Of a stretch of 17,092 nucleotides of DNA, positions 1,222 to 17,092 are shown piece after piece (the stretch's first letter is position 1; each line of letters starts with the position of its first letter). Location of the stretch: positions 1-17,092 of the forward strand of contig JAAXUD010000007.1 in assembly GCA_013336205.1 (NCBI GenBank), in the 5' to 3' direction. The stretch comes from Lentimicrobium sp. (GTDB lineage Bacteria > Bacteroidota > Bacteroidia > Bacteroidales > Lentimicrobiaceae). A model generated the notes under the pieces. It made no database searches and was not told the origin of the DNA. It saw only the letters and a program-made list of their open reading frames with translations. The position numbers were made by a program, and so were the translations under genes.

Positions 1222-1223
1222 TT

Positions 1224-3245
1224 ATGCTGCCCCTTATTTTGCTGATATTCATTCCTTTGGTTGCTGCTGTCGCGCTTCTTGCTATGGGCGACAAGCACAA
1301 AGCTATGATTGCAGCGGCATCAATTACCTTAAGTGCAGCAATCAGTTCTTTTATTGCGGTAAAGGCCTTGCAGGGAAGTGGTTTCGAATATACCTACAAT
1401 GGAGGCCAGGTCTTTGGCGATGTCAGGCTGGCGGTTGATCCCCTGTCTGCCTGGTTTATACTGCTGATGAATTTTACAGTGATTACCGCTGTTTTTTATG
1501 GGCGCAGTTATATGCGGGCTTATAAAGGAATGAATGCTGACCTGAACCTGCATTGGATTGGTTTTTTGGTGAATCATTCGGCCATGCTGGGTATATACAT
1601 GGTTCACAACAGCCTGGCTTTTTTGGTGGTGTGGGAGGTAATGGCCATATCTGCCTTTTTACTGGTTATTTTTGAGCACTGGAAAGTGGAAACCCTAAAG
1701 GCTGGCATCAATTACCTTATTCAGTCACACGTCAGCATCGTGTTTCTGATGATCGGATTTCTATGGATTGCCGGGGTTCAGGGTACTTATGACTTTTCCG
1801 CGATTACAGCTTACAGCCGGCAGGCAACACCAGCGGCCGGCGTGCTTTTATTCGTCTTGTTTTTTATAGGATTCGGGATTAAAGCGGGTTTTGTTCCGTT
1901 TCATACCTGGCTGCCTTATGCACATCCGGCGGCACCGGCGCATATTTCCGGAATGATGTCAGGGGTAATAATAAAAACCGGGATTTATGGTATTTTGCGT
2001 ATCATACTGCTCGAAAATACCAATTTTCTGATCATTGGTTCCATTGTGCTGCTGGTTTCAATTATTTCAGGACTTTACGGAGTGATGCTGGCCATTGTGC
2101 AGCACAACCTCAAAAAACTACTGGCTTACCACAGCATCGAGAATATTGGAATTATAGGTATGGGAATTGGACTGGGCGTAATAGGAGTCGGGCTTGGCAA
2201 TCCCTTGCTTGCTTTTGCCGGATTTGCCGGCGGATTGCTGCATGTGCTCAACCATTCACTCTTTAAATCGTTGTTGTTTTATGGTTCCGGCAATATATAC
2301 CAGGCCATTCACTCGCTGAACATCGATAGCATGGGCGGACTTATCAAACAAATGCCCCGCACCGCCGCACTTTTTCTTATAGCGGCACTCGCAATCTGTG
2401 GTTTGCCTCCGTTTAATGGCTTTGTTAGTGAATTCCTGATATATCTTGGCCTTTTTGAAGCTATTCAGACCGGGCAGTTTGAATTTACCGCACTTATTAT
2501 CCTCTCTACCCTTGGCCTGGTGCTGATCGGGGGACTGGCGATTCTGTGTTTTACCAAAGCATTCGGGATTATTTTTCTGGGCACAGCGCGGAGTGAACAC
2601 AAGCACATTCCACAGGAAGCAGACACGGGGAAATTACTTCCAATGTACCTGGTGGTCGCATTAATTATAGCCATAGGATTGTTTCCCGGGATTTTTATTG
2701 AATTTCTCAGGTTGCCGGTTCAGCAATTTACCGGCGATGTGTTTGTATCCGGAGCCCATCCGGCAATTATTTCAACCATACAAAATGTTACCCGGGCCAC
2801 CTGGGGATTTCTACTCCTGGTTGCTGCAATCTGGTATGTCAGGAAATGGATTACAGCTTCTGCAACCACAGCCAGCGGACCAACCTGGGGTTGCGGTTAT
2901 AAAACCAGCGATGCCCGCCTGCAATATACGGCCAGTTCTTTCGTCAGGAACTATCGTAAACTGGTAGAGCCAATGCTTTCAGTTACAAAGCACAAGACGA
3001 TAATCAAAGGTATTGTTCCTGAAAAAGGACATTCATCAACCCATGTTTATGATTTACTGGAAAGTGCCATTATTGACCGCCCTATCCGGAGAATCAAAGG
3101 TTTCATCGGAAAATTCAATTTCCTTCAGAATGGCAGTGTGCAATTTTATGTATTGTACGGGGTCATCTTCATCTTTATCATCATCACCTTCCCACTTGTG
3201 GTGGAAGCAGTGGTGTTTTTATTTGAATTAATCAAACAATTATAA
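1224..3245 (+). CDS. hyfB: HyfB-like antiporter subunit, second tandem copy, full length
   Basis: Complete NuoL-like/HyfB-like subunit of 673 residues, close to E. coli HyfB/HycC in length. Counting from the ATG at 1224, the ion-path residues of the family are present: Glu138 (VVWEVMAIS), Lys220 (GFGIKAGFVPFHTWLPYAH), Lys251, Lys348 (NHSLFKSLLF) and Lys445 (FTKAFG). The C-terminal tail carries PTWGCGY (about residue 553 onward) and a last transmembrane helix. The start could also be the TTG at 1218, overlapping the previous stop; the ATG two codons later is preferred. There is no Shine-Dalgarno sequence, as usual in Bacteroidota. The gene ends 9 nt before the hyfC-like gene, so it is co-transcribed. 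It is predicted to form a proton- or sodium-conducting unit of the membrane arm. Which ion is used cannot be read from the sequence. Confidence 0.93.
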   Translation: MLPLILLIFIPLVAAVALLAMGDKHKAMIAAASITLSAAISSFIAVKALQGSGFEYTYNGGQVFGDVRLAVDPLSAWFILLMNFTVITAVFYGRSYMRAYKGMNADLNLHWIGFLVNHSAMLGIYMVHNSLAFLVVWEVMAISAFLLVIFEHWKVETLKAGINYLIQSHVSIVFLMIGFLWIAGVQGTYDFSAITAYSRQATPAAGVLLFVLFFIGFGIKAGFVPFHTWLPYAHPAAPAHISGMMSGVIIKTGIYGILRIILLENTNFLIIGSIVLLVSIISGLYGVMLAIVQHNLKKLLAYHSIENIGIIGMGIGLGVIGVGLGNPLLAFAGFAGGLLHVLNHSLFKSLLFYGSGNIYQAIHSLNIDSMGGLIKQMPRTAALFLIAALAICGLPPFNGFVSEFLIYLGLFEAIQTGQFEFTALIILSTLGLVLIGGLAILCFTKAFGIIFLGTARSEHKHIPQEADTGKLLPMYLVVALIIAIGLFPGIFIEFLRLPVQQFTGDVFVSGAHPAIISTIQNVTRATWGFLLLVAAIWYVRKWITASATTASGPTWGCGYKTSDARLQYTASSFVRNYRKLVEPMLSVTKHKTIIKGIVPEKGHSSTHVYDLLESAIIDRPIRRIKGFIGKFNFLQNGSVQFYVLYGVIFIFIIITFPLVVEAVVFLFELIKQL

Positions 3246-3254
3246 TCAATACCC

Positions 3255-4163
3255 ATGCTAAGTCTGATACTGATTGTTGCGGCCAGCTTCTTTTTTACGG
3301 GAATTATTATCCGTACAAAAAGCATTTTGTCGGGCCGGAAGGGGCCTGGTATTATGCAGCCAATGAAAGATATCTGGCGCTTGTTGCGAAAAGGCAGTGT
3401 TTACAGCGAAACTTCAAGTTTTGTATTTCGCCTTGCCCCTACGGTTTATTTTGCTTCGGTTATTATGGCGCTGTTGTTTATTCCATTTGGCAATCAGTCC
3501 GGCTTGTTCTCTTTCGATGGCGATTTTGTTTTCTTTGCCTATGTGCTGGCCCTGGGTAAGTTCTTCAGCATTATTGGTGCACTGGATACAGGCAGCAGCT
3601 TCGAAGGCATGGGCGCCAGTCGTGAAGCGCTTTACTCTTTACTTGCCGAACCGGCTTTTTTCCTGTTGATGGGCTCTTTCGCACTGCTAACCGGTCACAC
3701 CTCGTTTGCAGATATTTTCGGAACACTCCATTTTGCTTCCCAGATATCCTATGCCATCGGCGCACTGGCCTCTATCGTGTTGCTTGCCATTGCCCTCATT
3801 GAGAACAGCCGCATGCCCATTGATGATCCCAAAACCCACCTTGAGCTCACTATGGTGCACGAGGTTATTATACTCGACAACAGTGGCTTTGATCTGGGGA
3901 TGATCCTTCAGGCTACCAACCTGAAGTTTGCCATGTATGGGGCTTTGGTAGCAAATATGTTTCTTACCCGCGGTTATGAAATTTACTATTCCATCCCTAT
4001 TTTTATAAGCATTCAGTTTTTGTTTGCCATGATAATCGGAATACTGGAATCTTTCTGGGCAAGATTCAGGATGAATCACAACCCGCAGTTTATTCTGATG
4101 ATTACTTCAATAGCCCTTTTTATATTTCTGGGCGTATTATTGATGTTGGGCAAAATTGTTTAA
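3255..4163 (+). CDS. hyfC: HyfC/NuoH-like membrane anchor subunit
   Basis: A 302-residue member of the NuoH/HycD/HyfC family (E. coli HycD is about 307). This subunit sits at the junction of membrane and peripheral arms and couples the latter to ion movement. Recognisable motifs, in order: GRKGPGIMQPMKDIW (27-41), the cytoplasmic loop that contacts the peripheral arm; DTGSSFEGMGASREA (111-125); and ENSRMPIDDPKTHLELTMVH (183-202), the acidic loop that is the family signature. About eight hydrophobic helices are visible. Both coupling loops are intact. This matters because the peripheral subunits in this operon have lost most cofactor ligands, so the docking site still appears to be under selection. 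It lies 9 nt after the second hyfB-like gene and 17 nt before the hyfE-like gene. Confidence 0.94.
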   Translation: MLSLILIVAASFFFTGIIIRTKSILSGRKGPGIMQPMKDIWRLLRKGSVYSETSSFVFRLAPTVYFASVIMALLFIPFGNQSGLFSFDGDFVFFAYVLALGKFFSIIGALDTGSSFEGMGASREALYSLLAEPAFFLLMGSFALLTGHTSFADIFGTLHFASQISYAIGALASIVLLAIALIENSRMPIDDPKTHLELTMVHEVIILDNSGFDLGMILQATNLKFAMYGALVANMFLTRGYEIYYSIPIFISIQFLFAMIIGILESFWARFRMNHNPQFILMITSIALFIFLGVLLMLGKIV

Positions 4164-4180
4164 CCTGAAAATTAACCATT

Positions 4181-4810
4181 ATGTCAGATGTACTTCTAAT
4201 CCTGTTTGCAATTACCCTGATTTATATCGGGGTGGCCAACAGGTTGTTTACCTATATTTCAGTACTTGCGTTTCAGGGTGTGCTGCTCTTCGGTATTGCA
4301 TTTATCCAGTTAATAGAAATCAATACAATCAACCTTGTTTTTGTATTACTGGAGACGATAATTTTCAAAACAATTGCCATCCCGATCTTTTTGCGGAGGG
4401 TTATAAAGCGCAACCAGATCAAAAGAGAAGCAGAGCCGTTTGTTTCCAATTTCGTTTCTGTAGTTATAATTACTGCAATCATCATAAGCTCCTTTTTGCT
4501 CTCCAACACAGTACACGATGAGCACCTGGAGAAAATGTTTTTTGTAATTGCACTCTCTTCTCTTTTTACCGGACTCTATATCATCGCAAGCCGCCGAAAG
4601 GTAATTACCCATGTTATGGGATTTCTGATTATCGAAAATGGTGTTTTCGTGCTTTCACTAGCTGTGGGGAATGAGATGCCTATGCTGGTGAATACCGGAA
4701 TCCTGCTCGATATTTTTGTGAGTGTGCTGCTACTGGGCATTTTCGTCAATAAAATAGGCGATGTGATTAAGGAACAGGATGTTGAATCGCTGAGTAGTTT
4801 AAAAGATTAA
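4181..4810 (+). CDS. hyfE: HyfE/NuoK-like membrane subunit
   Basis: A 209-residue integral membrane protein of the HyfE (NuoK-related) family, about the usual HyfE length. It carries acidic residues within helices: Glu59 (FVLLETIIFKT), Glu152 (FLIIENGVF) and Asp177 (GILLDIFVSV). The segment GFLIIENGVFVLSLAVGNEM closely follows the HyfE pattern of an ENG followed by a hydrophobic helix. A charged cytoplasmic stretch (RRVIKRNQIKREAE, 72-85) separates the two helical bundles. Its role in the family is to complete the E-channel next to the HyfC subunit, through buried glutamates. It lies directly downstream of hyfC, where hydrogenase-4 operons normally carry hyfD first, and no hyfD is present between them. 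The hyfF-like gene follows after 11 nt. Confidence 0.92.
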   Translation: MSDVLLILFAITLIYIGVANRLFTYISVLAFQGVLLFGIAFIQLIEINTINLVFVLLETIIFKTIAIPIFLRRVIKRNQIKREAEPFVSNFVSVVIITAIIISSFLLSNTVHDEHLEKMFFVIALSSLFTGLYIIASRRKVITHVMGFLIIENGVFVLSLAVGNEMPMLVNTGILLDIFVSVLLLGIFVNKIGDVIKEQDVESLSSLKD

Positions 4811-4821
4811 AAAACGGAACT

Positions 4822-6249
4822 ATGATTGGAATTTATCTTTCATCTGCCCTGCTTATTGCCCTGTTGCTTTTTCTGATTAGAAACAACGGAGTGAAATATG
4901 CATTACTGGGCGCTTTCGTGATATTACAACTGGTGTATGCTTACTATGCTTTCACTCATCAGAATATTGTTGATCTCGAATATTTTATGCCCGATGCTTT
5001 GGGGACGTTGTTCCTGATTGTCCTTAGTATTGTTATCATTCCTGCCTTGATTCACAGTCATATTTATTTTGTGTACCATCCTTATCTACCAAGGGAACAG
5101 GGGATGTATTATGCATCCATGGTTATTCTGATTACCGCGCTGAGTGCGGCCTATGTATCAAACCATATTGCCGTAACCTGGGTGTTTGTAGAATTGACAA
5201 CACTAAGCGCATCGGCCCTGATTTACCACCGGCGTAATATTCTTACCCTTGAAGGTACATGGAAGTATATCTTTGTATGCTCTATCAGCATTACCCTGGT
5301 TTTTATCGGAATTCTTTTCCTGAGTATTGCCATTCAACAGGAAGGGCTCAAGGATCTGACCTACATCAGCCTGATGCAGAATGCTCATCTGCTGAATGTT
5401 TTCTGGTTAAAGCTGGCTTTCCTGTTCATATTTACAGGATTTACCTCCAAAGCCGGGCTTGTTCCCATGTACACTGCCGGCATTGATGCCAAGGATAAGT
5501 CGCCTCACCCTGCAGGAGCGTTACTCAGCAGTGTACTGATGAATATGGGATTTCTTGGTATTTTCAGGTTTTATGAGATTATCAGTCATACAACAATCCA
5601 TGAATGGAGTAATAGTGTAATGATCATTTCAGGACTTGCCTCAGTTTTTGTTGCAACTGTATACATGCTTAAGGTAAAGAATTTCAAACGCCTGATGGCT
5701 TATTCAAGTGTTGAGCATATGGGGCTGGTTATCCTGGGATTGGCGGCAGGCGGGATTGGCGCATACGCCGCGATATTGCACCTGGTGTTACATTCATTCG
5801 CCAAACCGGCGCTCTTTCTGCAATTCGGTCAGATGAACCGGACCTATAACAGCAAAAATATCTATCAGATGGGTGGGTATTTCCGCTTGAATCCAACAGG
5901 GGCAATGGTGCTGTTGCTCGCCTTTTTCACAGTTACAGCCATGCCGCCTTCAGGAATGTTTATCAGCGAATTTCTGATTTTCCGTTCATTGTTCGAAGCA
6001 CATCAGCTCTGGCTGCTGGTTATCGTGCTTTTATTACTTACATTCATTATCTGGGCTTTTGGCAAAAATGTATTCCGCATTTTATTTACCAGGCCGGTCG
6101 CATTCGATGAGTCGAAATTCGTAAAGATTAAGCCGCTTGAATCACTCAGCCAGTTTGTTTTGCTGGCCCTGGTTCTATGGCTTGGCTTTAATCCACCAGC
6201 CGGTATGATTGAGATGATTCAAACTGCTGTTGCTAATCTGCCTCATTAA
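4822..6249 (+). CDS. hyfF: HyfF-like antiporter subunit with a divergent TM7-TM8 loop
   Basis: A 475-residue NuoN/NuoM-type antiporter-like subunit (family length about 480-530). The ion-path residues are visible: Glu124 (VFVELTTLSAS), Lys210 (GFTSKAGLVPM), Lys328 (LHSFAKPALFL) and Lys415 (AFGKNVFRIL). The family motif MPPSGMFISEF is also present (cf. LPPFNGFISEF in the HyfB copies). The loop after TM7 is odd: where HyfF proteins usually carry HTWLPDAH followed by a conserved Ser/Pro stretch, this one has YTAGIDAK (217-224) then DKSPHPAGALLSS. The frame is intact and the flanking motifs align, so this is sequence divergence and not a frameshift. The gene ends 2 nt before hyfG. It is predicted to be the third antiporter-like unit of the complex in this window. 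Confidence 0.92.
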   Translation: MIGIYLSSALLIALLLFLIRNNGVKYALLGAFVILQLVYAYYAFTHQNIVDLEYFMPDALGTLFLIVLSIVIIPALIHSHIYFVYHPYLPREQGMYYASMVILITALSAAYVSNHIAVTWVFVELTTLSASALIYHRRNILTLEGTWKYIFVCSISITLVFIGILFLSIAIQQEGLKDLTYISLMQNAHLLNVFWLKLAFLFIFTGFTSKAGLVPMYTAGIDAKDKSPHPAGALLSSVLMNMGFLGIFRFYEIISHTTIHEWSNSVMIISGLASVFVATVYMLKVKNFKRLMAYSSVEHMGLVILGLAAGGIGAYAAILHLVLHSFAKPALFLQFGQMNRTYNSKNIYQMGGYFRLNPTGAMVLLLAFFTVTAMPPSGMFISEFLIFRSLFEAHQLWLLVIVLLLLTFIIWAFGKNVFRILFTRPVAFDESKFVKIKPLESLSQFVLLALVLWLGFNPPAGMIEMIQTAVANLPH

Positions 6250-6251
6250 TT

Positions 6252-7751
6252 ATGAAAAAATCCATCGAAATAAAAAATAACCAGACCATCTCCATTGCTT
6301 CCATTCCGGAGCTGGACTATGCTGACTTCCTTGGCTTCAACACAGCAATGATGGCCGATGAAGCCTGTCATTGTGTGCAATACTTCGCTGTCAGCCGGCC
6401 TGGTGCTTTTCAGCTGATATGTTGTATGGCGAACGACAGGGAGCACAATATCAGTGTCAGTTCATCCCTGGTTAAACCTGGGGCAAAACTGGCTTCTTTT
6501 ACCCGACGCCACTTTTCATTCCATTTTTTTGAGCGGGAGATTCATGAAAACTATGGTTTGCAATACACCGATCATCCCTGGTTAAAGCCAATCCGCTTCC
6601 CATTTGACAGGGCAGATATGAAGCAGCAGATTGCCAACTACCCATTCTATCATATGGATAGTGAGGAGTTGCATGAAGTCGGAGTCGGGCCTATTCATGC
6701 AGGCGTTATTGAGCCGGGGCACTTCAGGTTCATCTGCAACGGCGAGCAGATTTTACATCTTGAAATTCAACTTGGATTTCAACATCGCGGTGTTGAGTAC
6801 CTTATGTTGCAAAAGAAAAACCTGTTGCAACAGACTATACTGGCCGAATCAATTTCCGGCGATACAGTGGTAGGTCATACTACAGCGTTTGCCAGCATTT
6901 GGGAGAACCTGGCTGGTTTCAAACCTTCACCCGACCTGGTTTATGCGCGCACTGTGGCCCTTGAGTGGGAACGCATTGCCATTCACTCCGGCGACCTGAG
7001 TGCCATAGCTACTGATATTGCTTATCAACTTGGTAGTAGCGTATTTGGGCGACTCCGGACACCAATTATCAATGCTTTTCAGGAATGGTGTGGCAACCGC
7101 CTGGCAAAAAGTCTGATTCGCCCCGGGCGAAACCGCTTCCCGTTCACCCCGGCTACCGAAGCTGTTTTTACGGGCGTTCTTGATGCTTACTGGCCTGATT
7201 ATACAGAAATGTTTGACCGTATGATCGATTTGCCCTCTGTGCTTGCCCGACTCGAAAAAACCGGGGTTGTCAGCCGGGAGCAGTCGTTGAGTATTGGCGC
7301 TGTCGGGCTGAGCGCACGCGGCAGCGGTGTTGAACGCGATGTGCGCAAATCGCATCCTTACCTTGGTTACGAAGCATTAAGCCATCAACCATTGATTTTG
7401 CCTCAGGGGGATGTGGATGCCCGCACCCGTTTGCGTGATCTTGAAATCAGACAATCAATCGGTTATGTGCGCGAAATGATGAAAAATACACCTCCGGTGA
7501 TTCAGCCTTTGCTATTGAATGAAACACTTGCCTCCGACAGTTTCAGCATGACAATGATTGAAGGCTGGCGCGGAGAGATCTGCCATTGCGCTTTAACCGG
7601 AGCTGAAGGTGAACTGATTGCTTATAAGATCAAGGACCCATCGGTCCACAACTGGCTGGCCCTGGCCCTGTCGGTGCGCAACAATGAGATTTCAGATTTT
7701 CCCATCTGCAATAAGAGCTTTAACCTCAGCTATTGCGGACATGACCTTTAG
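6252..7751 (+). CDS. hyfG: HyfG/HycE-like large subunit (NuoC-NuoD fusion) lacking NiFe ligands; Ehr-type
   Basis: A 499-residue fusion. Residues ~1-120 are a NuoC-like 30-kDa domain (FEREIHENYGL at 93-103, DHPWLKPIRFPF). Residues ~140-499 are a NuoD/hydrogenase large-subunit domain with GVGPIHAGVIEPGHFRF (144-160), HRGVEYLM (178-185), ARGSGVERDVRKSHPYLGY (355-373) and KDPSVHNW (461-468). In active group 4 hydrogenases two CxxC pairs bind NiFe. Here the N-terminal pair is replaced: ESISGDT (199-205) stands where ERICGIC is expected, giving Ser202 and Thr205. The C-terminal DPCxxC falls on NLSYCG (491-496), leaving Ser493 and Gly496; Cys495 lies between the ligand positions. The protein stops four residues later (CGHDL), so the tail normally removed by a maturation protease is absent. 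It is therefore predicted not to bind NiFe and not to be a hydrogenase. By family it docks on HyfC and the small subunit at the cytoplasmic face. Confidence 0.92.
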   Translation: MKKSIEIKNNQTISIASIPELDYADFLGFNTAMMADEACHCVQYFAVSRPGAFQLICCMANDREHNISVSSSLVKPGAKLASFTRRHFSFHFFEREIHENYGLQYTDHPWLKPIRFPFDRADMKQQIANYPFYHMDSEELHEVGVGPIHAGVIEPGHFRFICNGEQILHLEIQLGFQHRGVEYLMLQKKNLLQQTILAESISGDTVVGHTTAFASIWENLAGFKPSPDLVYARTVALEWERIAIHSGDLSAIATDIAYQLGSSVFGRLRTPIINAFQEWCGNRLAKSLIRPGRNRFPFTPATEAVFTGVLDAYWPDYTEMFDRMIDLPSVLARLEKTGVVSREQSLSIGAVGLSARGSGVERDVRKSHPYLGYEALSHQPLILPQGDVDARTRLRDLEIRQSIGYVREMMKNTPPVIQPLLLNETLASDSFSMTMIEGWRGEICHCALTGAEGELIAYKIKDPSVHNWLALALSVRNNEISDFPICNKSFNLSYCGHDL

Positions 7752-7765
7752 CAAACTGTGTTTTC

Positions 7766-7778
7766 AGGTTTTTAACCT
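7766..7778 (+). repeat. short inverted repeat in the widest operon gap
   Basis: AGGTT-TTT-AACCT forms a perfect 5-bp stem with a 3-nt loop in the 34-nt gap between the large-subunit gene and the ferredoxin/small-subunit fusion gene, the longest gap in the operon. It is too weak to be a convincing terminator. It might modulate mRNA processing, or it may be chance. Confidence 0.25.
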
Positions 7779-7785
7779 TTGAATT

Positions 7786-8553
7786 ATGATACCAGAACTC
7801 AAAATATTATTCCACCAGGGAAAACAGTTTATACCGGATGTAACGACCGTTGAGGTGCCGGGCATTTTCCGTGGCAGACCGGTGATCAGTGAAAAGGAAG
7901 TTGATACCGAAGCCCTGCTTCATTGCTGCCCAACCGGGGCACTGAAGTCCGGTCCAAAAATCAGCCTCGATATGGGACTATGTCTGTTTTGCGGTGAGTG
8001 TGCAGAGAAATTCCCTGACAAAGTCTCTTTTACCAAAGATTATAAACTTGCGTCCAACTTCCGCGAAGGATTGGTGGTGCATGAAGGAGAGGATCACCCG
8101 GTTTTTATTAATCCCGAATTGGTTAGACAGGAAATTACCCGGATTTTCAGTGGCTCGATCAAATTGCGGCAGGTGTCGGCAGGTGGTGACAATAGTTGCG
8201 AGTGGGAGTTGAATGCTGCCGGAAATGTGCAGTTCGACATGGGGCGTTTCGGTATTGAATTTGTGGCTTCACCCCGGCATGCCGATGGGATTGTAATCAC
8301 CGGCCCTATCACACAAAACATGGCTGAACCACTTCAGCTATGCTACGATGCAACTCCTTCGCCAAAGATCATTATACTGGCGGGGGTTGATGCCATCAGT
8401 GGAGGAATCTTTGCCGGAAGTCCGGCCATCGACCGCAGCTTTCTCAATAAATACCCGATTGACCTCTATATACCCGGAAATCCGGTGCATCCGCTGAACT
8501 TTATCAATGGAGTGCTGGGGCTGATCAGGAGTAAAAGAAGCATCAAAAAGTAA
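7786..8553 (+). CDS. Fused HyfH-type ferredoxin domain and HyfI/NuoB-type small subunit with most Fe-S ligands lost
   Basis: A 255-residue protein. Residues ~1-95 match HycF/HyfH (FRGRP at 28-32, CPTGAL at 48-53, GLCLFCGECAEKFP at 64-77, TKDYKLAS). Residues ~120-255 match HycG/HyfI/NuoB (RFGIEFVASPRHADGIVITG at 154-173, ISGGIF, LYIPGNPVHP at 227-236). In the ferredoxin part, the first CxxCxxC is gone (Glu/Thr/Leu around 38-45) but its fourth cysteine Cys48 remains. The second motif keeps Cys66, Cys69 and Cys72, while its fourth position is Phe76. By ferredoxin topology this keeps one complete [4Fe-4S] site (48, 66, 69, 72; N6b-like) and removes the other (N6a-like). In the small-subunit part only Cys138 of the four proximal-cluster (N2-like) ligands is left; the others read Asp135, Asp202 and Asn232. 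In hydrogenase-4 the two domains are separate genes. It is the last gene of the operon, and a terminator follows. Confidence 0.88.
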   Translation: MIPELKILFHQGKQFIPDVTTVEVPGIFRGRPVISEKEVDTEALLHCCPTGALKSGPKISLDMGLCLFCGECAEKFPDKVSFTKDYKLASNFREGLVVHEGEDHPVFINPELVRQEITRIFSGSIKLRQVSAGGDNSCEWELNAAGNVQFDMGRFGIEFVASPRHADGIVITGPITQNMAEPLQLCYDATPSPKIIILAGVDAISGGIFAGSPAIDRSFLNKYPIDLYIPGNPVHPLNFINGVLGLIRSKRSIKK

Positions 8554-8588
8554 CAGCAGCGGTTATTATTTTCCTGAAAAAGGATAAA

Positions 8589-8626
8589 AAAATAGCGGAA
8601 AGGACAATTGGTCTTTCCGCTATTTT
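8589..8626. terminator. bidirectional intrinsic terminator between convergent genes
   Basis: A perfect 14-bp stem (AAAATAGCGGAAAG at 8589-8602 paired with CTTTCCGCTATTTT at 8613-8626) encloses a 10-nt loop. The arms begin and end in A and T runs, so it reads as an intrinsic terminator on either strand. It lies 35 nt after the stop of the hydrogenase-like operon and 17 nt after the stop of the minus-strand peptidase gene, so it probably serves both. Confidence 0.88.
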
Positions 8627-8643
8627 CTTATTGCAGCTTGTGG

Positions 8644-10755
8644 TTATTTCAGCCCGCGTTTTTTGAGCAGAGGCTCCAGGGAAGGTTCCTGTCCCCTGAA
8701 TTTTTTATACTGAATCATACCTTCATCATCACCATTTTCGGCAAGGCAATGTTTACGGAACGCTGCGGCGAGTTCGGGGTTAAAAATGTCGCCTGACTGC
8801 TTGAAGTAATCAAATGCATCCGCATCGAGCACTGCTGCCCACAGATAAACATAATACCCGGCAGCATACCCGCCATCGAAAATATGGGCGAAATAGGTGG
8901 AACGATAGCGTGGCCATATTTCGCTGATAAGGCCGATATTGTCCATCGCCTGCTTTTCAAATGCAACTACATCTTCAACTTTGGCAGGAGTTGCCAGCTT
9001 GTGATAATCCATATCCAGAATGGAAGCCGCGATGTATTCCACATTGTCAAACCCCTGGTTGAAAAGACCGCTGTTCTGGATTTTCGTGATGAGGGCATCG
9101 GGAATGACTTCTCCGGTTTTGTAATGTTTGGCGAACATGCGCAGCACTTCCGGCTCACCTGCCCAGTTTTCCATTACCTGTGACGGAAGTTCAACATAAT
9201 CCTGAGGAACATTGCCGGCAGTGCGGGTGTACTTACCCTGGGTAAACAAGCCATGGAGTCCATGCCCGAATTCGTGGAAAAGTGTGGTGGTTTCATCCCA
9301 GTTCAGCAGTGCAGGTTTATCACCTGTTGGCGGGGTGAAATTACAGACAATAGAAACAATAGGATCAACTTTCTTGTCGTTTTCCCAGCCTGAAGACTGA
9401 AAATCTGTACACCAGGCGCCACCGCTCTTCGATTCGCGGGGGTAGTAATCCAGGTAGAGGATGCCGAGGTGGGTGCCATCGGCTTCCTTAACTTCAAATG
9501 TTTCAACATCGGCATGATAAACAGGCAGGTTGGTAACTTTGGTAAAGGTGATGCCATACAGTTTTCCGGCAACAGCAAACATACCATCGCGCACATTGTC
9601 AAGACTGAAATAAGGTTTTAGCTCATTTTCGTCGAGATCGTATTTTTCTTTACGGAGTTTTTCGGCATAAAACCACCAATCCCACGACTCCAGTTTGAAA
9701 CCGGCACCTTCTTTATCAGCTATTTTCTGCATTTCTGCCAGTTCAGCTTTGGCAACCGGCAAAGCAGCGACCATCAGTTTATTGAGAAATTCATCAACAT
9801 TGGCAGTGGTTTTGGCCATATTTTCATCAATCACATAAGCCGCGTAGTTGTCAAATCCGAGCAGGGCTGCTTTTTCAGCGCGCAGGCTTATCATTTCAGC
9901 AAGTACAAGTTTGTTATCGTTGGCGTTGTCGTTGTTGCCCCGCATAAAGTAGCCACGGTAAATCTTTTCACGCAGTTCGCGGTTTTTGGCATACTGAAGA
10001 AATGGAATCATGCTTGGCTTGGCCAGGGTAAAAACCCACTTGCCTTCCATGCCGGCTGATTTTGCGGCTTCAGCAGCAGCAGAAACCACACCTTCAGGTA
10101 AGCCATCGAGATCGGCCTGATTTTCAACAACCAGCTTGAAGTTCTTATTGGTTTCGGCCAGCAGGTTTTCGCCAAATTTAAGCCCAAGCGTAGCAAGTTT
10201 TTCATTAATTTTCTTCAGCTGTTCCTGTTGTTCAGCATTCAGATTGGCACCTTTGCGTTCGAAATCGCGGTAGTACTTTTCAACGACCCTGATTTGTTGT
10301 GCATCAAGCCCTGACTCATTCCTTTTCTCATAAACAACCTTAATCTTCGCGAATAATTCAGGGTTCATCGAGATTTCATCGTTGTGCATTGACAGCATGG
10401 GAGAAACCTGCTGGGCTATTTCCTGAATCTTGTCGCTGTTATTGGCAGCCTGTAAATTGAAAAAGACTTTACTTACTTTGGTAAGCAATTTGCCAGATTT
10501 ATCATAAGCCAGGATGGTATTTTCGAAAGTAGGGGCTTCCTGATTTGCTGTGATGGCAGTAATCTCGTCGTTGTGTTGCTTCATGCCTTCAACAAAGGCA
10601 GGCATAAAGTGGGCAGTGTCAATCTTATCGAAAGGTGGCACCTGGAAAGGAGTAGTGTAATCGGCAAAGAACGGATTGTCGGTCTTGGGTTGGGTCTTGC
10701 AGCCGGTTGATGCAAGGGCAGCGACTGCGATGATCATCAGAAAAAGATTTTTCAT
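8644..10755 (-). CDS. dcp: M3 family metallopeptidase lipoprotein (peptidyl-dipeptidase Dcp type)
   Basis: A 703-residue zinc peptidase of the M3 (thimet oligopeptidase/Dcp) family, near the usual ~680-710. It carries HEFGHGLH (494-501: zinc ligands His494 and His498, catalytic Glu495) and the downstream third ligand Glu522 in DYVELPSQVMENW. The substrate-binding segment is HIFDGGYAAGYYVYLW, and the Dcp-like C-terminus is FRGQEPSLEPLL. Such enzymes cut short peptides, in Dcp by removing C-terminal dipeptides. The chosen ATG (10755) gives MKNLFLMIIAVAALASTGC, a lipoprotein signal peptide with Cys19 as lipidation site, so the enzyme should be membrane-anchored outside the cytoplasm. A longer frame from 10806 would bury this signal and start inside the promoter -7 box, so it is not used. 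It is monocistronic here and has no evident link to the neighbouring operon. Confidence 0.94.
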   Translation of the reverse strand: MKNLFLMIIAVAALASTGCKTQPKTDNPFFADYTTPFQVPPFDKIDTAHFMPAFVEGMKQHNDEITAITANQEAPTFENTILAYDKSGKLLTKVSKVFFNLQAANNSDKIQEIAQQVSPMLSMHNDEISMNPELFAKIKVVYEKRNESGLDAQQIRVVEKYYRDFERKGANLNAEQQEQLKKINEKLATLGLKFGENLLAETNKNFKLVVENQADLDGLPEGVVSAAAEAAKSAGMEGKWVFTLAKPSMIPFLQYAKNRELREKIYRGYFMRGNNDNANDNKLVLAEMISLRAEKAALLGFDNYAAYVIDENMAKTTANVDEFLNKLMVAALPVAKAELAEMQKIADKEGAGFKLESWDWWFYAEKLRKEKYDLDENELKPYFSLDNVRDGMFAVAGKLYGITFTKVTNLPVYHADVETFEVKEADGTHLGILYLDYYPRESKSGGAWCTDFQSSGWENDKKVDPIVSIVCNFTPPTGDKPALLNWDETTTLFHEFGHGLHGLFTQGKYTRTAGNVPQDYVELPSQVMENWAGEPEVLRMFAKHYKTGEVIPDALITKIQNSGLFNQGFDNVEYIAASILDMDYHKLATPAKVEDVVAFEKQAMDNIGLISEIWPRYRSTYFAHIFDGGYAAGYYVYLWAAVLDADAFDYFKQSGDIFNPELAAAFRKHCLAENGDDEGMIQYKKFRGQEPSLEPLLKKRGLK

Positions 10756-10803
10756 GGAGATAAAACAGGGATTAGGGTTAAAACACCTTTGTGAATTATC
10801 CGG

Positions 10804-10834
10804 CAAATGTAAACTCTAAAGTGGTATAAACAAG
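10804..10834 (-). promoter_or_regulatory. Bacteroidota-type promoter of the M3 peptidase gene
   Basis: On the minus strand, CTTG (10834-10831) is followed after 19 nt by TACATTTG (10811-10804). This fits the Bacteroidota housekeeping pattern of TTTG at about -33 and TAnnTTTG at about -7. It lies about 50 nt upstream of the preferred ATG at 10755, a plausible leader length, and supports that start. Confidence 0.6.
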
Positions 10835-11500: not shown

Positions 11501-11587
11501 ATGCAAAAAAAACCTACTTATTTACGATGGTTTGTGGTTTTAACTATGATGGCATTCATCTGGTTGGGCAATACACAGGCCAATGCC
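11501..11587 (+). other. Sec signal peptide of the giant surface protein
   Basis: Residues 1-29 have a basic start (MQKKPTYLR), a hydrophobic core (WFVVLTMMAFIWLG) and a small-residue cleavage region (NTQANA before MG). There is no lipobox cysteine, so signal peptidase I processing is expected. Confidence 0.8.
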
Positions 11588-14500
11588 ATGGGCGATGGCA
11601 CAAAAAGCGCCACGACCCCCGATAACGCATCTGAAATTGCACCTCCTGCACAAAGGGGAGCTACTGCAATTATACCACAAGGCCGTTTGGAACTTGGTGG
11701 AAACAGATTGCCCTCAAGCCTGCTTTACGACAACGGTCCACTGGTAAACAGCCCGGGAACCGGAGCAGGTGGAGCTGATGAAAGTGTATTGCAATCTACT
11801 TCCCTTGGCATGGGAACAATTGGCTTTGGATTTCAATACCTGGTTGGAAATCATATCGCTGATGATTTTGTGGTGGCAGGCAACTGGACCATTGATCAGT
11901 TTACATTTTATGCGTATCAGACTGGTTCAACAACAACCTCAACCATAACCGGCGGCTACCTTCAGATTTTTGATGGTGATCCTTCTGCCGGCGGAACACT
12001 CATCTGGGGTGACATGGTCACCAACAGAATGGCTTCAACTTCTTTCACCAATATTTATCGTGTGACTCAAACAACCTCAGGGGCTACAAACCGTCCGATT
12101 ATGGAGGTAGTTTGTTCTACGCCCGGTCTGGTGCTTTCAGCTGGTACTTATTGGGTTGAATATACTATTGATGGCTCACTGGCTTCCGGCCCCTGGGCGC
12201 CTCCTGTTACAATCAATGGTCAAACAACTACCGGTAATGCACATCAAAGCCTTGTAGGTGTCTGGGGCCCGGCCAATGATGGTGGTACTCTGACACTGCA
12301 GGGTTTCCCATTCCTTATTGAAGGAACAGCCGCAGCGCCTGGTCTTGATTTTGTTTCTCCAAGTCTTTCTATGGGATTCCGTCCGATAGGCGCCTGGATG
12401 GAACCAGCCAGATATGAGGTAGTAAATATTCCTGGCGGTGGTGCAGCAAGCATCGCTACAGCCGATATTGATAATACCTACGATGGTTTTGTAGAGGTAG
12501 TTGCACCTGCACTGCCATTTATTCTTGACGAAGGCGAAACCACCACGGAGTTTGGTTTAACCGCTACTGACGCTGCAGTGGCACCGGGTGCTTTCAACGG
12601 TACTTTTGCCCTGATATATGGCAGCGCCAGAGCGATGATCACTGCGACCTATGATGGTACTGCTTACACACCTCTTTATGCAGATGTCATAGAAACTGCG
12701 GGTCCATTACCTCCAACAGTTGCCAATATGGCTCCTGCTGCAATACCTCAGCCTTCAGGACGCGAATCAGGCGGGTTATATAAAAACTATATACTTCCCA
12801 ACGACCTTGGTGCTTCAGCTACCGATGTTGATTATGCCTATATTCTCGAACCTCCGGTTGACATGTTGTTAAATTTGACTACAAGTTTTGGCAGCCCTGT
12901 TAACTATGCCGTTTATGCCGAAGATTTTGAAGGTGAAGGCGGCCCTATGGCACACAATGCTTTGGTACAGTCAATTGATGTGCTCACCAATTTCCCGATG
13001 TTTGCCGGTGATACCTATTATATGATTGGCAGTGCATTGAATAGCTGGGGAGGAAGTTACACTTTACTTCCAATGCCGGTTCCGGATGCTGTTACTTATG
13101 TTTCACCTGCCGACGGTGCTATCAACATTAACAACGGAATGTCACTCAACTGGCTTTTTGGCGCCAATGTAGCTGAGTATCAGGTGATCCTTGGTACAAC
13201 TTATCCACCGGCCACTGTAGTGGTTGATTGGACAAGTGACCTGGCAGAATCCTATACACTGACTGGTCTGAATCCAAATCTCCAGTATTTCTGGCAGATT
13301 AATGTTAGAAATACCCAGGGTACCACTTTTGGTCCGGTATGGGGTTTCACCACAACCATCGACGTTCCTACCGGGCTCACTGCTTCTGTTGTTGATCCGG
13401 GACCTACCGTTCCTACAGTTGCTGTGAATCTATCATGGACTGGTAACAACAGCCGTGCTTTCCTGGGCTATAATGTATACCGCAACGGGGTTAAAATCAA
13501 TCCTGCCCTTGTAACCGGTACAACATACAACGACCCAGGCCTTGCCCGGAATACAACCTATACCTATAACGTAACCGCTGTTTTTGATGAAGGCGAATCT
13601 GCTTTCTCATTGCCTGCTGTTGTTACCACTCAGGGTGTTGGTATTGTTAACGGAACAGTAACCGATGTATTGGTCACCACGCCAATTGCCGGTGCTTCTG
13701 TTGTAATAAGCGGACCCGCAGGCACCTATAATCTGACTACAGCCGCCAACGGAACTTATTCCGCCCAGGTGTATGCCGGAACCTATAGCTATACTGTTTC
13801 AGCCCCTGGTTATATCAATGGCACTGCTTCAGGTGTTGTTGTTGCTCATGCTGCAACCGTAACTCTCAATTTCGCCCTGCTGGAAACCCCTTTCCCTGTT
13901 GATTATGTTATTGCAACCGAACTGAATGAAGAAAATGTGCTGCTTCAGTGGGGATTTGATCTTGATAAAGGCGCAGGCAATCGTGCCCTGGTTGAATTCC
14001 AGGTATGGCGCGAAAAAGTTTATCTGCCCGGTGCTTTTGAACAGATCGGAACCACCTCGCAAACTCAGTTTGTTGATTTTGACTGGGGATTGCAGGACTG
14101 GGGTGTTTATAGATGGTATATAGTTGCCGTTTATACCGCCAATCAATCTGCTCCGGTTGGTTCCAACACGCTTGACAAAGACATGAATACCATGGTTGAT
14201 GTTACTGTTGTGTTGAACTCAAACGACAGCCCGGCCGGTACCATGGTTACATTCCAGAATATCTCAGAACCTTTTCTCGACCTGACTTATTCAACCACCT
14301 TAGGTGCCAGTGGCACTTTTGAATGGGATGCTTTCCGCAGAGGTACTTATGATATTGAGGTTTACAAAGCTGGATATGTTCCTGTTTTTGAAAGCTCAGT
14401 TGATATATTCGACGAAAGCTCTTTCGAATGGCTGCTGATAGAAATACTGGCTGCTCCCGAAAACCTTTATGTTACTCCAACTGGTCTCGCAACCTGGGAA

Positions 14501-17092
14501 GCTGGTGCTGTACCTCCTCCTTTGCGTTCATTCCAGAATTACAAGGTATTCCTCGATGGCGTTCTTGTCGCTGAAGTTGCAGATCCTTTGTACCAGTATG
14601 GTACCAATGGAGAAGCCCTGGTTGATGGCGAAACTTACCTGGCAGAAGTCGCTGCTGTTTACAGCACCGGCCAGTCAGCTAAAACCGGCTATACCTGGAC
14701 TTACATCGCCTGCGATAATTATGCTACACCCGGAAGTTTTACCGCTGTTCAGGTTGAAGGAACTGTTGACGTGTCGCTGACATGGACTGTTCCAACTATT
14801 CCACCTGCCGACGATCAGATTGATTTTGCCCGCCTCTACCGCGATGGTGAAGTTCTTGCTGAATTAACCGGCACATCATATCTGGATGAAGACCTCGATT
14901 TTGCAACCTATACTTACTGCATCACTTTTGTTTACGAAAGCGGTGCTGAAACATGTCCAGCTACTATTTGTGAGACTGTGGAAGTAATTGGTGGTGGTTT
15001 TGTTAACGGAAATGTTAAACAGGCTGCTTACCTTGGTGGTGCAAACATTGAAGGCGCTGAAGTAGTATTAACCAATACAGCCGACAACACAATCACTTTT
15101 ACCTTTACAACAAACGCCGCTGGTAATTATACCGGTGAAGTGCTGGCAGGTACCTATGATTATGTAGTAAGTGCTGCCGGTTATGTTTCTGAAACACTTG
15201 AAGATGTATTTATAGCGCAGACAGCTACCGTTACACGTAACTTCGTTTTGATGGAGTATCCTTTCCCTGTTAGCAATGTTGTTGCAGTTGATCAGGAAAC
15301 CAGTGCTTTAATCTACTGGAATACTCCTGGTACAAACCAGGGTGGCAGTAATACCGTTTATGAGGAATTTGACAATGGTATGCCATCAATGTTAGTTACC
15401 GATACTCCTGCAGCTAACTGGACAGTAGCCAATGATTTCCTTAACCTGAATACTCCGGGTGCAGGCGTTTGGCGTTCAGCTTATTACAATGCAGAATTTG
15501 GTGATTTCATGTATGAAGTTGAAATGCAGCGTACTGTTGGTGCTGTAACAGGCTCCATGGGTATCTACGTAAGAGGCACCGGATTAATGAATCCTACTGT
15601 TGGAAGCGGATCCTATGCCAATGTTTTCACCATTACCCAGAACGGTTCTTACTGGTATGCTACCTTACTGGATGGCGACCTTATGGGCGACTGGACAGGC
15701 TGGTTAACCTCAAGTGCAATCAATACAACCGGACCTAATGTATTATCAGCGGTTGCTTCTGGTTCAACTGTTCAGTTTATGGTGAACGGAATCCTTGTAC
15801 ATACAGTAACTAACACTACCCTTACCGGTGGTTATTGTGGTGTTTTTGCTCACGAAGGCACTGTAGCTAATACAACTGTTTGGGATTATATGATGATCGA
15901 ACCGGGGACTGTTGTAGTCCGCGATTTGATGACCAATCATATCTCAAGAGAAACCAAAGGTAACCTGCAGGAAGTATTCACAACCAATGTAAATACTGTA
16001 GAACCACGCGGACTCAACGTTCATACACCGGTTACCGGCTCAGGCCGTGAACTTATGGGTTACAATGTATGGCGTACTTCATGCGACGGAACAGCTGGCC
16101 TTACCTTCTTAGGTTACACGCTCGACTCTACCTTTGTTGACAACCAGTTTGGCGCTTTAGACGCCGGTGTTTACAAGTGGGCAGTTGAAGCCGTTTATAC
16201 AGCCAACAATGCTGAGCCACAGTTCTCTAACTGTCTGGATAAAGATATGATTACACAGGTAAGTGTAACCGTAACTACCAACAGTCTTGATAGTCCTGTT
16301 GAAACCCAGGTTATGTTCACCAACACTTCAGAACCAGACCTCGAATTGGTATATGAAGTAGAACTTGACGAAACCGGCTACTATGCATGGGATGAATTCC
16401 GCAAAGGCACCTATGATATCTATGTTGAGAAATACGGATTTGCTCCGATAGCGATCAGCGGATATGTAATAGATGGTCCTGAAGCATTTGAATGGGTGCT
16501 CGAAGAGCTCCTGATGCCGGTTGCTGATCTTTATGTAACACCAACCGCTTATGCAACCTGGAGACAGGGTGGCATCATTCCATTTGAACCAACTTCCTTC
16601 GATTTTGAAGCCGATGCTCAGGGATGGGAAATACAGAATGTAGCAACCGGATGGAGATGGGGTAACAATGCCTCCTTATCATCCAGCTTCATGAACTTCA
16701 ATGGAAACAGTACTAATTTCATTGCTGTGAATGCTGACGGCGCCGGTTCAGCCGGACCTGCTATTGTTGAAATGGCTAAATCACCGGTAATGGATCTTTC
16801 CAATGCACAGATGGCTTACCTCAATTTCGACTACCTGCTTCGCTTTGATGATCTCAGTGTTCATTATAGTATTGCTGGAGGTTCACCTGTATTGCTCGAG
16901 CAACTTGATGAGTATTATACAGCAGGTTGGGCAAGCGTTTCAATCGAACTTCCTGAGGAAGCTCTGGTAGCCGATGTGCAAATAATCTTCCTTTTCGAAG
17001 AAGCAAATACATGGGGTTATGGCGCTGGTGTTGATAATGTAGCTGTTACAGACGAGGCACCTGAAAATGCCCGTGCACTGCAATACTACAAA
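11501..17092 (+). CDS. Giant secreted multidomain (FN3 / carboxypeptidase-regulatory-like / jelly-roll) surface protein, 3' end outside window
   Basis: Open for 1864 codons to the window edge. An in-frame stop at 11477 makes ATG 11501 the first start. After a signal peptide (1-29, cleavage after ANA) comes a beta-rich domain (~75-285, with GNHIADDFVVAG and YLQIFDGDPSAGG). Next are a linker domain (~290-415), a PPC-like beta sandwich (~418-525, ending FAGDTYYMIGSALNSWGG) and two FN3 domains (531-618; 621-710). Then come a carboxypeptidase-regulatory-like domain (714-~796), an FN3, a beta domain and two more FN3 domains. A second regulatory-like domain starts at 1166. It is followed by an FN3 holding an inserted LamG-like domain, another beta domain, and an FN3 holding an inserted choice-of-anchor-J/MAM-like domain. 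No catalytic motif is seen. An adhesin or matrix protein is likely. In Bacteroidota such proteins usually end with a type IX secretion sorting domain, which would lie beyond the window and cannot be confirmed. Confidence 0.88.
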   Translation, partial: MQKKPTYLRWFVVLTMMAFIWLGNTQANAMGDGTKSATTPDNASEIAPPAQRGATAIIPQGRLELGGNRLPSSLLYDNGPLVNSPGTGAGGADESVLQSTSLGMGTIGFGFQYLVGNHIADDFVVAGNWTIDQFTFYAYQTGSTTTSTITGGYLQIFDGDPSAGGTLIWGDMVTNRMASTSFTNIYRVTQTTSGATNRPIMEVVCSTPGLVLSAGTYWVEYTIDGSLASGPWAPPVTINGQTTTGNAHQSLVGVWGPANDGGTLTLQGFPFLIEGTAAAPGLDFVSPSLSMGFRPIGAWMEPARYEVVNIPGGGAASIATADIDNTYDGFVEVVAPALPFILDEGETTTEFGLTATDAAVAPGAFNGTFALIYGSARAMITATYDGTAYTPLYADVIETAGPLPPTVANMAPAAIPQPSGRESGGLYKNYILPNDLGASATDVDYAYILEPPVDMLLNLTTSFGSPVNYAVYAEDFEGEGGPMAHNALVQSIDVLTNFPMFAGDTYYMIGSALNSWGGSYTLLPMPVPDAVTYVSPADGAININNGMSLNWLFGANVAEYQVILGTTYPPATVVVDWTSDLAESYTLTGLNPNLQYFWQINVRNTQGTTFGPVWGFTTTIDVPTGLTASVVDPGPTVPTVAVNLSWTGNNSRAFLGYNVYRNGVKINPALVTGTTYNDPGLARNTTYTYNVTAVFDEGESAFSLPAVVTTQGVGIVNGTVTDVLVTTPIAGASVVISGPAGTYNLTTAANGTYSAQVYAGTYSYTVSAPGYINGTASGVVVAHAATVTLNFALLETPFPVDYVIATELNEENVLLQWGFDLDKGAGNRALVEFQVWREKVYLPGAFEQIGTTSQTQFVDFDWGLQDWGVYRWYIVAVYTANQSAPVGSNTLDKDMNTMVDVTVVLNSNDSPAGTMVTFQNISEPFLDLTYSTTLGASGTFEWDAFRRGTYDIEVYKAGYVPVFESSVDIFDESSFEWLLIEILAAPENLYVTPTGLATWEAGAVPPPLRSFQNYKVFLDGVLVAEVADPLYQYGTNGEALVDGETYLAEVAAVYSTGQSAKTGYTWTYIACDNYATPGSFTAVQVEGTVDVSLTWTVPTIPPADDQIDFARLYRDGEVLAELTGTSYLDEDLDFATYTYCITFVYESGAETCPATICETVEVIGGGFVNGNVKQAAYLGGANIEGAEVVLTNTADNTITFTFTTNAAGNYTGEVLAGTYDYVVSAAGYVSETLEDVFIAQTATVTRNFVLMEYPFPVSNVVAVDQETSALIYWNTPGTNQGGSNTVYEEFDNGMPSMLVTDTPAANWTVANDFLNLNTPGAGVWRSAYYNAEFGDFMYEVEMQRTVGAVTGSMGIYVRGTGLMNPTVGSGSYANVFTITQNGSYWYATLLDGDLMGDWTGWLTSSAINTTGPNVLSAVASGSTVQFMVNGILVHTVTNTTLTGGYCGVFAHEGTVANTTVWDYMMIEPGTVVVRDLMTNHISRETKGNLQEVFTTNVNTVEPRGLNVHTPVTGSGRELMGYNVWRTSCDGTAGLTFLGYTLDSTFVDNQFGALDAGVYKWAVEAVYTANNAEPQFSNCLDKDMITQVSVTVTTNSLDSPVETQVMFTNTSEPDLELVYEVELDETGYYAWDEFRKGTYDIYVEKYGFAPIAISGYVIDGPEAFEWVLEELLMPVADLYVTPTAYATWRQGGIIPFEPTSFDFEADAQGWEIQNVATGWRWGNNASLSSSFMNFNGNSTNFIAVNADGAGSAGPAIVEMAKSPVMDLSNAQMAYLNFDYLLRFDDLSVHYSIAGGSPVLLEQLDEYYTAGWASVSIELPEEALVADVQIIFLFEEANTWGYGAGVDNVAVTDEAPENARALQYYK
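13640..14713 (+). repeat. supermodule copy 1: regulatory-like domain, FN3, beta domain, FN3
   Basis: Within the giant protein this copy holds, in order, a carboxypeptidase-regulatory-like domain (YAGTYSYTVSAPGY, NFALLETPFPV) and an FN3 (LVEFQVWRE, VYRWYIVAVYTAN). A beta domain follows (LDKDM, FEWDAFRRGTYDIEVYKAGY), then an FN3 (LYVTPTGLATWEAG, RSFQNYKVFLDG). The same landmarks recur in the same order from 14996. One extra FN3 (about 14714-14992) separates the two copies. Confidence 0.75.
15347..16045 (+). other. LamG/concanavalin-like domain plus linker inserted in an FN3 loop
   Basis: Between the FN3 strand ALIYWNTPG (followed by TNQGG) and the strand RELMGYNVWR lie 233 extra residues. About 188 of them (to 15910) look like a LamG/concanavalin-type jelly roll: YEEFDNG start, FMYEVEMQR, MGIYVRG, STVQFMVNGILVHT, GGYCGVFAHEG and TTVWDYMMIEPG. 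The remaining ~45 residues (15911-16045) are a linker I do not recognise. Such domains often bind glycans, but no specific ligand site is evident. Confidence 0.65.
16592..17071 (+). other. choice-of-anchor-J/MAM-like domain inserted in an FN3 loop
   Basis: About 160 residues starting TSFDFEADAQGWEIQN and ending GYGAGVDNVAVTDEAPEN. The opening phrase, the WRWGNN segment, the SPVMDLSNAQMAYLNFDYL strand and the closing GVDNVAV are typical of the choice-of-anchor J / MAM-like jelly-roll domain of Bacteroidota surface proteins. It sits between YATWRQGGIIPFEP and RALQYYK, which are contiguous in the copy 1 FN3 (ATWEAGAVPPPLRSFQNYK). Confidence 0.7.

Follow-up and report, generated by a model that had tools for sequence, protein, structure and literature searches.

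Energy-converting-hydrogenase-related (Ehr) complexes have been described in Nitrospira, ammonia-oxidising archaea, Sulfobacillus, Riflemargulisbacteria and Geobacter sulfurreducens, and according to the accessible portions of the reports their large subunit is devoid of the [NiFe] ligands or CxxC motifs (PMC10284858, PMC12342949, PMC10432482, PMC4378227, PMC6349859). As far as these portions go, most of the same reports assign no function to Ehr, and in one of them the complex is suspected of redox-driven charge translocation with formate dehydrogenase as a partner (PMC6349859). The G. sulfurreducens cluster GSU0739-45 comprises NuoL-like, HyfE-like, large and small subunits, and the available excerpt, which does not take up the large-subunit motifs, suggests a link of this Ehr complex to formate oxidation (PMC7894505). 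Formate hydrogenlyase (HycC-HycG) and hydrogenase 4 of Escherichia coli have the same subunit make-up as the operon analysed here, HycE, HycF and HycG being among the nearest solved relatives of its products. Further sequence relatives are MbhJ, MbhN, MbhL and MbsJ of the Pyrococcus furiosus MBH and MBS complexes, in which the electron wire between ferredoxin and the active site is intact.

The complex encoded in the window, as the whole stretch of 17,092 nucleotides is called hereafter, can be regarded as an extreme Ehr-like complex and a relative of the membrane-bound [NiFe] hydrogenases and complex I, a likeness that is based on gene make-up, motif loss and the published descriptions of Ehr complexes. 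It shares with the latter, as the accessible text depicts them, a group 4 hydrogenase/complex I-like composition and a large subunit without [NiFe] ligands, but the window complex also lacks the N6a- and N2-type ligands and has its ferredoxin and NuoB-like domains fused. Formate hydrogenlyase has a [NiFe] site and a proximal cluster according to the available part of PMC9474812, whereas the window complex is without both. In the alignment HycF has both cysteine motifs, while its counterpart in the window keeps the ligand set of one cluster; in contrast to MBH and MBS, no electron wire could be recognised, and compared with respiratory complex I (NuoB, NuoI, NuoCD) the N2 and N6a ligand sets are missing. 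A literature search of incomplete coverage, which likely missed key papers, returned no description of N2-type ligand loss, and the accessible parts of the Ehr literature (PMC6349859, PMC10284858, PMC10432482, PMC4378227, PMC12342949, PMC7894505) make no mention of N2- or N6a-type ligand loss.

A seven-gene Hyf/Ech-type operon occupies bases 4-8553 (+) of the window (Table 1), in which NuoL/M-, NuoH-, HyfE-, NuoCD- and NuoB/I-like subunits are all present; the first HyfB-like copy is longer in relatives than in the window. The last gene encodes a fused small subunit, where a HycF/NuoI-like ferredoxin domain (residues ~15-105) is followed by a HycG/NuoB-like domain (~118-250). When genome contigs were scanned for the fused gene, the best 80 of 146 loci were kept, 79 of which are titled Bacteroidota and one (L010) only "uncultured bacterium". 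In 75 of these 80 loci the fused gene is preceded by a large-subunit gene, and the complete gene set was found in 56, many of the others being cut by contig ends. Three of the five loci without an upstream large-subunit gene have less than 0.5 kb of upstream sequence, while the 6.9 and 5.0 kb available ahead of the fused gene in L037 and L076, respectively, contain no recognised large-subunit gene, which indicates that the fused gene is separable from the operon. In several other loci the fused gene follows a gap of 0.3-1.7 kb, and L038 carries a second, 65%-identical copy of it ~8 kb downstream of the first. Within the same order, the fused protein was matched in 46 of 198 genomes (the window's genome included; E <= 1e-25). 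Downstream of the operon, the window contains an ordinary M3-family peptidase gene and an open frame that, judged by eye, apparently encodes a large repetitive surface or secreted protein.

Table 1. Positions of the operon genes, of the ligand sites in the fused small subunit and of other features in the window and in related loci
Sequence	Feature	Position	Strand	Remarks
Window	HyfB-like antiporter subunit, first copy	4-1221	+	5' part cut; window starts at base 1 of contig
Window	HyfB-like antiporter subunit, second copy	1218-3245	+	
Window	HyfC/HycD/NuoH-like subunit	3255-4163	+	conserved acidic residues
Window	HyfE-like membrane subunit	4181-4810	+	NCBIfam PRK11492, E 9e-16, below its cut-off
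Window	HyfF/NuoM/N-like antiporter subunit	4822-6249	+	conserved Lys/Glu
Window	Large subunit, HycE/NuoCD-like	6252-7751	+	without [NiFe] ligands
Window	Fused small subunit	7786-8553	+	255 aa
Window	Motif 1, Cys 1-3 lost	~7894-7917	+	residues ~37-44
Window	Cys48, last Cys of motif 1	7927-7929	+	N6b-type ligand, kept; followed by Pro49
Window	CxxCxxC of motif 2	7981-8001	+	N6b-type ligands, kept
Window	Cys66	7981-7983	+	
Window	Cys69	7990-7992	+	
Window	Cys72	7999-8001	+	
Window	Phe76 for last Cys of motif 2	8011-8013	+	N6a-type ligand lost
Window	Asp135-x-x-Cys138 for CxxC of proximal/N2 cluster	8188-8199	+	by alignment to MbhJ and HycG
Window	Asp202 for third N2-type Cys	8389-8391	+	
Window	Asn232 for fourth N2-type Cys	8479-8481	+	IPGNP; IPGCP in HycG
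Window	M3-family peptidase	8644-10806	-	nearest peptidyl-dipeptidase Dcp
Window	Open frame	11501-17092	+	at least 1864 aa; runs past window end
L038	Second fused small subunit	18741-19511	+	
L114	SulP	614-2398	-	Pfam
L115	SulP	565-2286	+	Pfam
L118	SulP	2759-4492	+	blast cluster only
L123	SulP	6921-9137	+	Pfam
L115	PTS EIIA-like	2457-3128	+	blast cluster in L116-L121

A preliminary description of the locus had stated that Cys48, followed by proline, and Cys66, Cys69 and Cys72 are kept in the ferredoxin domain and that Phe76 stands in place of the last cysteine, which was borne out by direct reading of the sequence; no CxxCxxC occurs upstream of Cys48 in the 255-residue protein. Thus, four of the eight cysteines that make up the two CxxCxxCxxxC motifs of 2[4Fe-4S] ferredoxin subunits are present. 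No ferredoxin Pfam match was obtained in the fused protein and its NCBIfam NuoI-type matches fell far below the cut-off, but in phmmer searches the ferredoxin piece alone matched HycF (7z0s_F, E = 6e-4) and MbhN (6cfw_N, E = 1e-3). In these alignments the CxxCxxC of the window falls on the second motif of both proteins and Cys48-Pro on the last cysteine of their first motif. In NuoI/Nqo9, N6b is ligated by the fourth cysteine together with the fifth to seventh, and N6a by the first three and the eighth. By this pattern we take Cys48, Cys66, Cys69 and Cys72 to be the N6b ligand set and the lost cysteines to be that of N6a. The HycF/MbhN alignment, which places the four kept cysteines on one set and the four lost ones on the other, agrees with the crossed ligand pattern proposed earlier.

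All four cysteines are invariant among the sequences of the first search (the best 120 of ~8000 scored, the window included) as well as in a set of 82 rows that contains the window twice. Among the same best 120 of ~8000, the neighbouring Cys47 is a cysteine in only nine, and residue 76 is Phe in 111, Tyr in eight and Thr in one. The structure of the fused protein was modelled with a pLDDT of 72.9 from 35 near relatives and of 88.5 from 86 diverse rows. The fold matches listed for the predicted models span from about residue 99 onward, that is, they recognise the NuoB/HycG small-subunit fold. In the ferredoxin domain, which none of them covers, the predicted secondary structure at residues 32-82 (block pLDDT 95-97) is compatible with a beta-alpha-beta-beta-alpha-beta arrangement. 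Simple arithmetic gives a 1 in 70 chance per lineage that, of eight cysteines, random loss spares just the four of one crossed set. A single N6b-type [4Fe-4S] site is thus predicted whose ligands are invariant, and the binding of a cluster at Cys48/66/69/72 would follow from these ligands.

The NuoB/HycG-like half is changed as well: the ligands of the proximal [4Fe-4S] cluster of group 4 [NiFe] hydrogenase small subunits are replaced by the D135/C138/D202/N232 combination. Asp135, Asp202 and Asn232 were each found in 120 and Cys138 in 118 of the best 120 of ~8000 sequences scored. Among the 316 rows without the four N2 cysteines (listed matches and loci together), D135 occurs in 308, D202 in 298 and N232 in 301, while position 138 is more variable (C 275, T 15, D 10, A 7, S 4, N 3, G 2); the four positions taken together read DDSY, DDHF, DDHS, DDSH or DDNY in some of these sequences. 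Sequencing or frame error was ruled out as the source of the window's ligand state, since the same state is seen in relatives from 80 other loci. Cultured relatives that share it include Breznakibacter xylanolyticus DSM 6779 (L061) and Chryseolinea serpens (the source named for P0288). The genome of the window contains one other PF01058 match, on contig C113.

Alignment with HycE-type sequences put S202/T205 and S493/G496 at the four [NiFe] cysteine positions of the window's large subunit, which consequently has neither the four cysteine ligands of group 4 [NiFe] hydrogenases nor, like Ehr, the [NiFe]-binding CxxC motifs. The motifs RxCGxCxxxH and DPCxxC were found in none of 103 large subunits (the window included, a few rows being incomplete at an end). 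A search of the window's genome (89.75% complete) for HypD, which is required for [NiFe] centre assembly, gave no match. An active [NiFe] hydrogenase is therefore ruled out. In all, three redox sites are gone, and the one left has no recognised neighbour at either end.

The proton-path residues of the large subunit are kept. The path residues given for HycE in the available part of PMC9474812, E193, H284, R395, E437 and R478 (12 below the chain numbers of our alignment), correspond to E154, H245, R356, E398 and R440 of the window when counted along the alignment. In that order, these residues are present in 73, 73, 72, 73 and 73 of 73 members of the window's family, in 18, 17, 16, 18 and 18 of 18 further loci of the order, and in 10, 11, 11, 11 and 11 of 11 outer loci. 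Asp529 in the HycE canopy is called strictly conserved in the accessible text of PMC9474812, yet this residue is mostly changed in the window's family (N 63, D 5, S 5 of 73). The large subunits of N2-lost members (88 rows) conserve C41, C444 and W279, among others, which are rare in the 11 N2-intact rows (C41 and W279 in two, C444 in one). In the window's family C41 and C58 occur in 73 and C444 and C57 in 72 of 73 large subunits; these extra cysteines may form a new site or may be only lineage marks.

The membrane arm keeps the Lys/Glu residues of ion-pump subunits. In the HyfF-like subunit, E124, K210, K289, K328 and E383, assigned as pump residues by alignment to MbhH, are each present in 70 of 70 rows, and E140, K222, K253, K350 and E405 of the HyfB-like subunits, which are presumably pump residues, in all 111 rows with both copies pooled. 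Eight acidic residues tested in the NuoH-like subunit are kept in 69 or 70 of 70.

The distribution of ligand states was followed in a wider sample collected in three protein searches, the two further ones begun from L120 (46% identity to the window) and L114 (56%). Since each search contributed the best 120 of ~8000 sequences scored, the counts are not population frequencies. The sample comprised 467 rows, 464 of them distinct with the window included (355 listed proteins, 80 contig-scan rows and 29 genome loci); L002, a copy of the window, and plain NuoB matches were left out, and the N6a state was judged by fixed spacing from the fourth and seventh cysteines. Every one of the 464 distinct sequences has the full N6b set. 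Of the N6a ligands, all four are found in 79 sequences, only some in 29 and none in 356, so that the N6a set is incomplete in 385; these figures upheld the earlier view that random decay is unlikely. The four N2-type cysteines are present in 148 sequences and changed in 316, five of the latter at one position only. All four combinations of N6a and N2 states occur and N6b is kept in each: N6a is absent with N2 changed in 266 and with N2 kept in 90 sequences, both are kept in 40, and N6a is kept with N2 changed in 39, the partial N6a sets being associated with changed N2 in 11 and kept N2 in 18 cases. The group of 39, having N6a and N6b but a changed N2, shows that N6b is retained even where transfer to N2 is impossible. 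The preliminary description had also claimed that selection keeps one cluster and has dispensed with the outer entry cluster. This stood insofar as one ligand set is under strong selection and the N6a-type set is gone; what did not stand is that only the outer cluster was lost, because the N2/proximal ligands (D135, C138, D202, N232) are lost too and those 39 sequences changed N2 with all four N6a ligands in place. Relatives with an intact first motif in this type of operon, which had been named as a case against the claim, do exist (79 of 464, among them L133 of the same order, so that the window's ligand state is not common to all 46 matching genomes of the order), but on the tree described below they appear as the older state and leave the pattern standing.

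The ligand columns were excluded from the calculation of a 67-row tree, for which L122/L123 served as the root. The window falls in a 10-row group that has neither a complete N6a set nor N2 (support 100/97), 14 rows with N2 lost and N6a kept form another group (97/90), and all N2-lost rows lie on one side of a weakly supported branch (79/77). A single origin of N6a loss was rejected (p-AU 8.4e-7; 35 rows against 32, the partly lost L122 being among the 32). In the second N6a-less clade, to which some sequences named Ignavibacteria belong, N2 is mostly kept, which would allow a short N6b-N2 wire, and the complete set of eight cysteines also occurs. L134, L136, L137 and L138, where the first three cysteines are lost and the eighth is kept, are likely intermediates of N6a loss. 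Since none of the 103 large subunits has a [NiFe] site, its loss preceded the other changes within this sample, and the absent ligands together with the intermediates show that the proximal/N2 and outer N6a clusters were lost later. The simplest reading is that in the window's lineage [NiFe] was lost first, then N2 and then N6a, the step from N2 to N6a depending on the 79/77 branch, and that the other clade lost N6a alone. The reverse order of N6a before N2 in the window's lineage was dropped, as N6a-intact/N2-lost rows exist.

Four of 91 loci (L114, L115, L118 and L123), all of them N2-intact, have a gene for a SulP-family transporter next to or within the operon, and in L123 a SulP-STAS-EIIA fusion is located between the large and small subunit genes; no SulP gene was seen near the operon in the available flanks of the window's clade. 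An inorganic-carbon role, prompted by these neighbours, is a lead only. In seven outer loci, the operon is preceded by a gene for a PTS EIIA-like protein (PF00359 as confirmed in L115), whose N-terminus resembles a helix-turn-helix by eye.

Considering these results, the absence of any cluster or [NiFe] site beside N6b and the retention of the Lys/Glu and proton-path residues make ion translocation the most likely working of the complex. In the reading we prefer, to which we give about an even chance, this Ehr-like complex no longer makes hydrogen; without a cluster or [NiFe] site on either side there would be no recognised electron path through the head, the membrane arm would translocate or antiport ions, the head would act as a coupling or regulatory cap, and the lone [4Fe-4S] cluster would either hold the ferredoxin domain in shape or report redox, oxygen or iron status. 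The redox roles proposed for other Ehr complexes (PMC6349859, PMC7894505) speak against this reading, as do L037 and L076 with their fused gene apart from any recognised large-subunit gene in the available upstream sequence. A bolder form, in which a machine of the complex I superfamily works without electron transfer and the invariant cluster is a redox, oxygen or iron gate on the ion-translocating membrane arm, can be put forward only tentatively.

The main rival is electron transfer through the lone cluster, which would leave the complex a redox enzyme: the N6b-type cluster would take electrons directly from a soluble donor such as ferredoxin and hand them on, within the remodelled N2/[NiFe] pocket, to an acceptor or cofactor not yet recognised. 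The invariant N6b ligands speak for it, as do the C41, C444 and W279 residues typical of N2-lost large subunits and the proton path, and the conserved Lys/Glu and proton-path residues would fit a redox-driven pump as well. Two PF02508 (Rnf/Nqr-type) matches in the window's genome make reduced carriers plausible, and other Ehr complexes are suspected, in the accessible part of PMC6349859, of coupling a cytoplasmic redox reaction to charge translocation. On the other hand, no cofactor motif was recognised in the N2/[NiFe] pocket, and C41, W279 and C444 may be lineage marks given their occurrence in one or two of the 11 N2-intact rows. Moreover, N2 sits between N6b and the active site, and at the usual distances between these centres the gap left by its loss is too long for fast transfer. 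We consider this explanation rather unlikely.

Less probable, and doubtful in our judgement, is that another metal centre is bound in the former N2 pocket by Asp135, Cys138, Asp202 and Asn232, so that the wire is remodelled and not cut. The near-invariance of the two aspartates and of Asn232 in the window's clade suggests that the old N2 site may still bind or reduce something, and Asp is known as an Fe-S ligand in other ferredoxins. However, the variable position 138 and the DDSY-type rows are better suited by hydrogen-bond filling of an empty pocket than by a metal site. Ordinary decay, in which the ferredoxin domain degenerates and the kept cysteines are leftovers, could account for the 29 rows partly decayed at the N6a site but is extremely improbable, because the complete N6b set in every sequence of the sample contradicts both chance and decay, the other genes of the operon are open and conserved, and N6a has been lost repeatedly with the same result.

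It has long been asked how electron transfer in complex I is coupled to ion pumping at a distance. The loci analysed here provide a natural series: [NiFe], N2 and N6a are absent in varying combinations, but the membrane-arm residues, the proton-path residues and the N6b-type site are fixed. Such a series of losses separates the coupling machinery from the electron wire, and the role of the head without electron flow becomes testable. As regards Ehr-like complexes, the absence of the [NiFe] ligands is not the sole loss to look for. As its site is invariant in every relative examined, the lone N6b-type cluster may well serve a purpose other than electron transfer along the former route.
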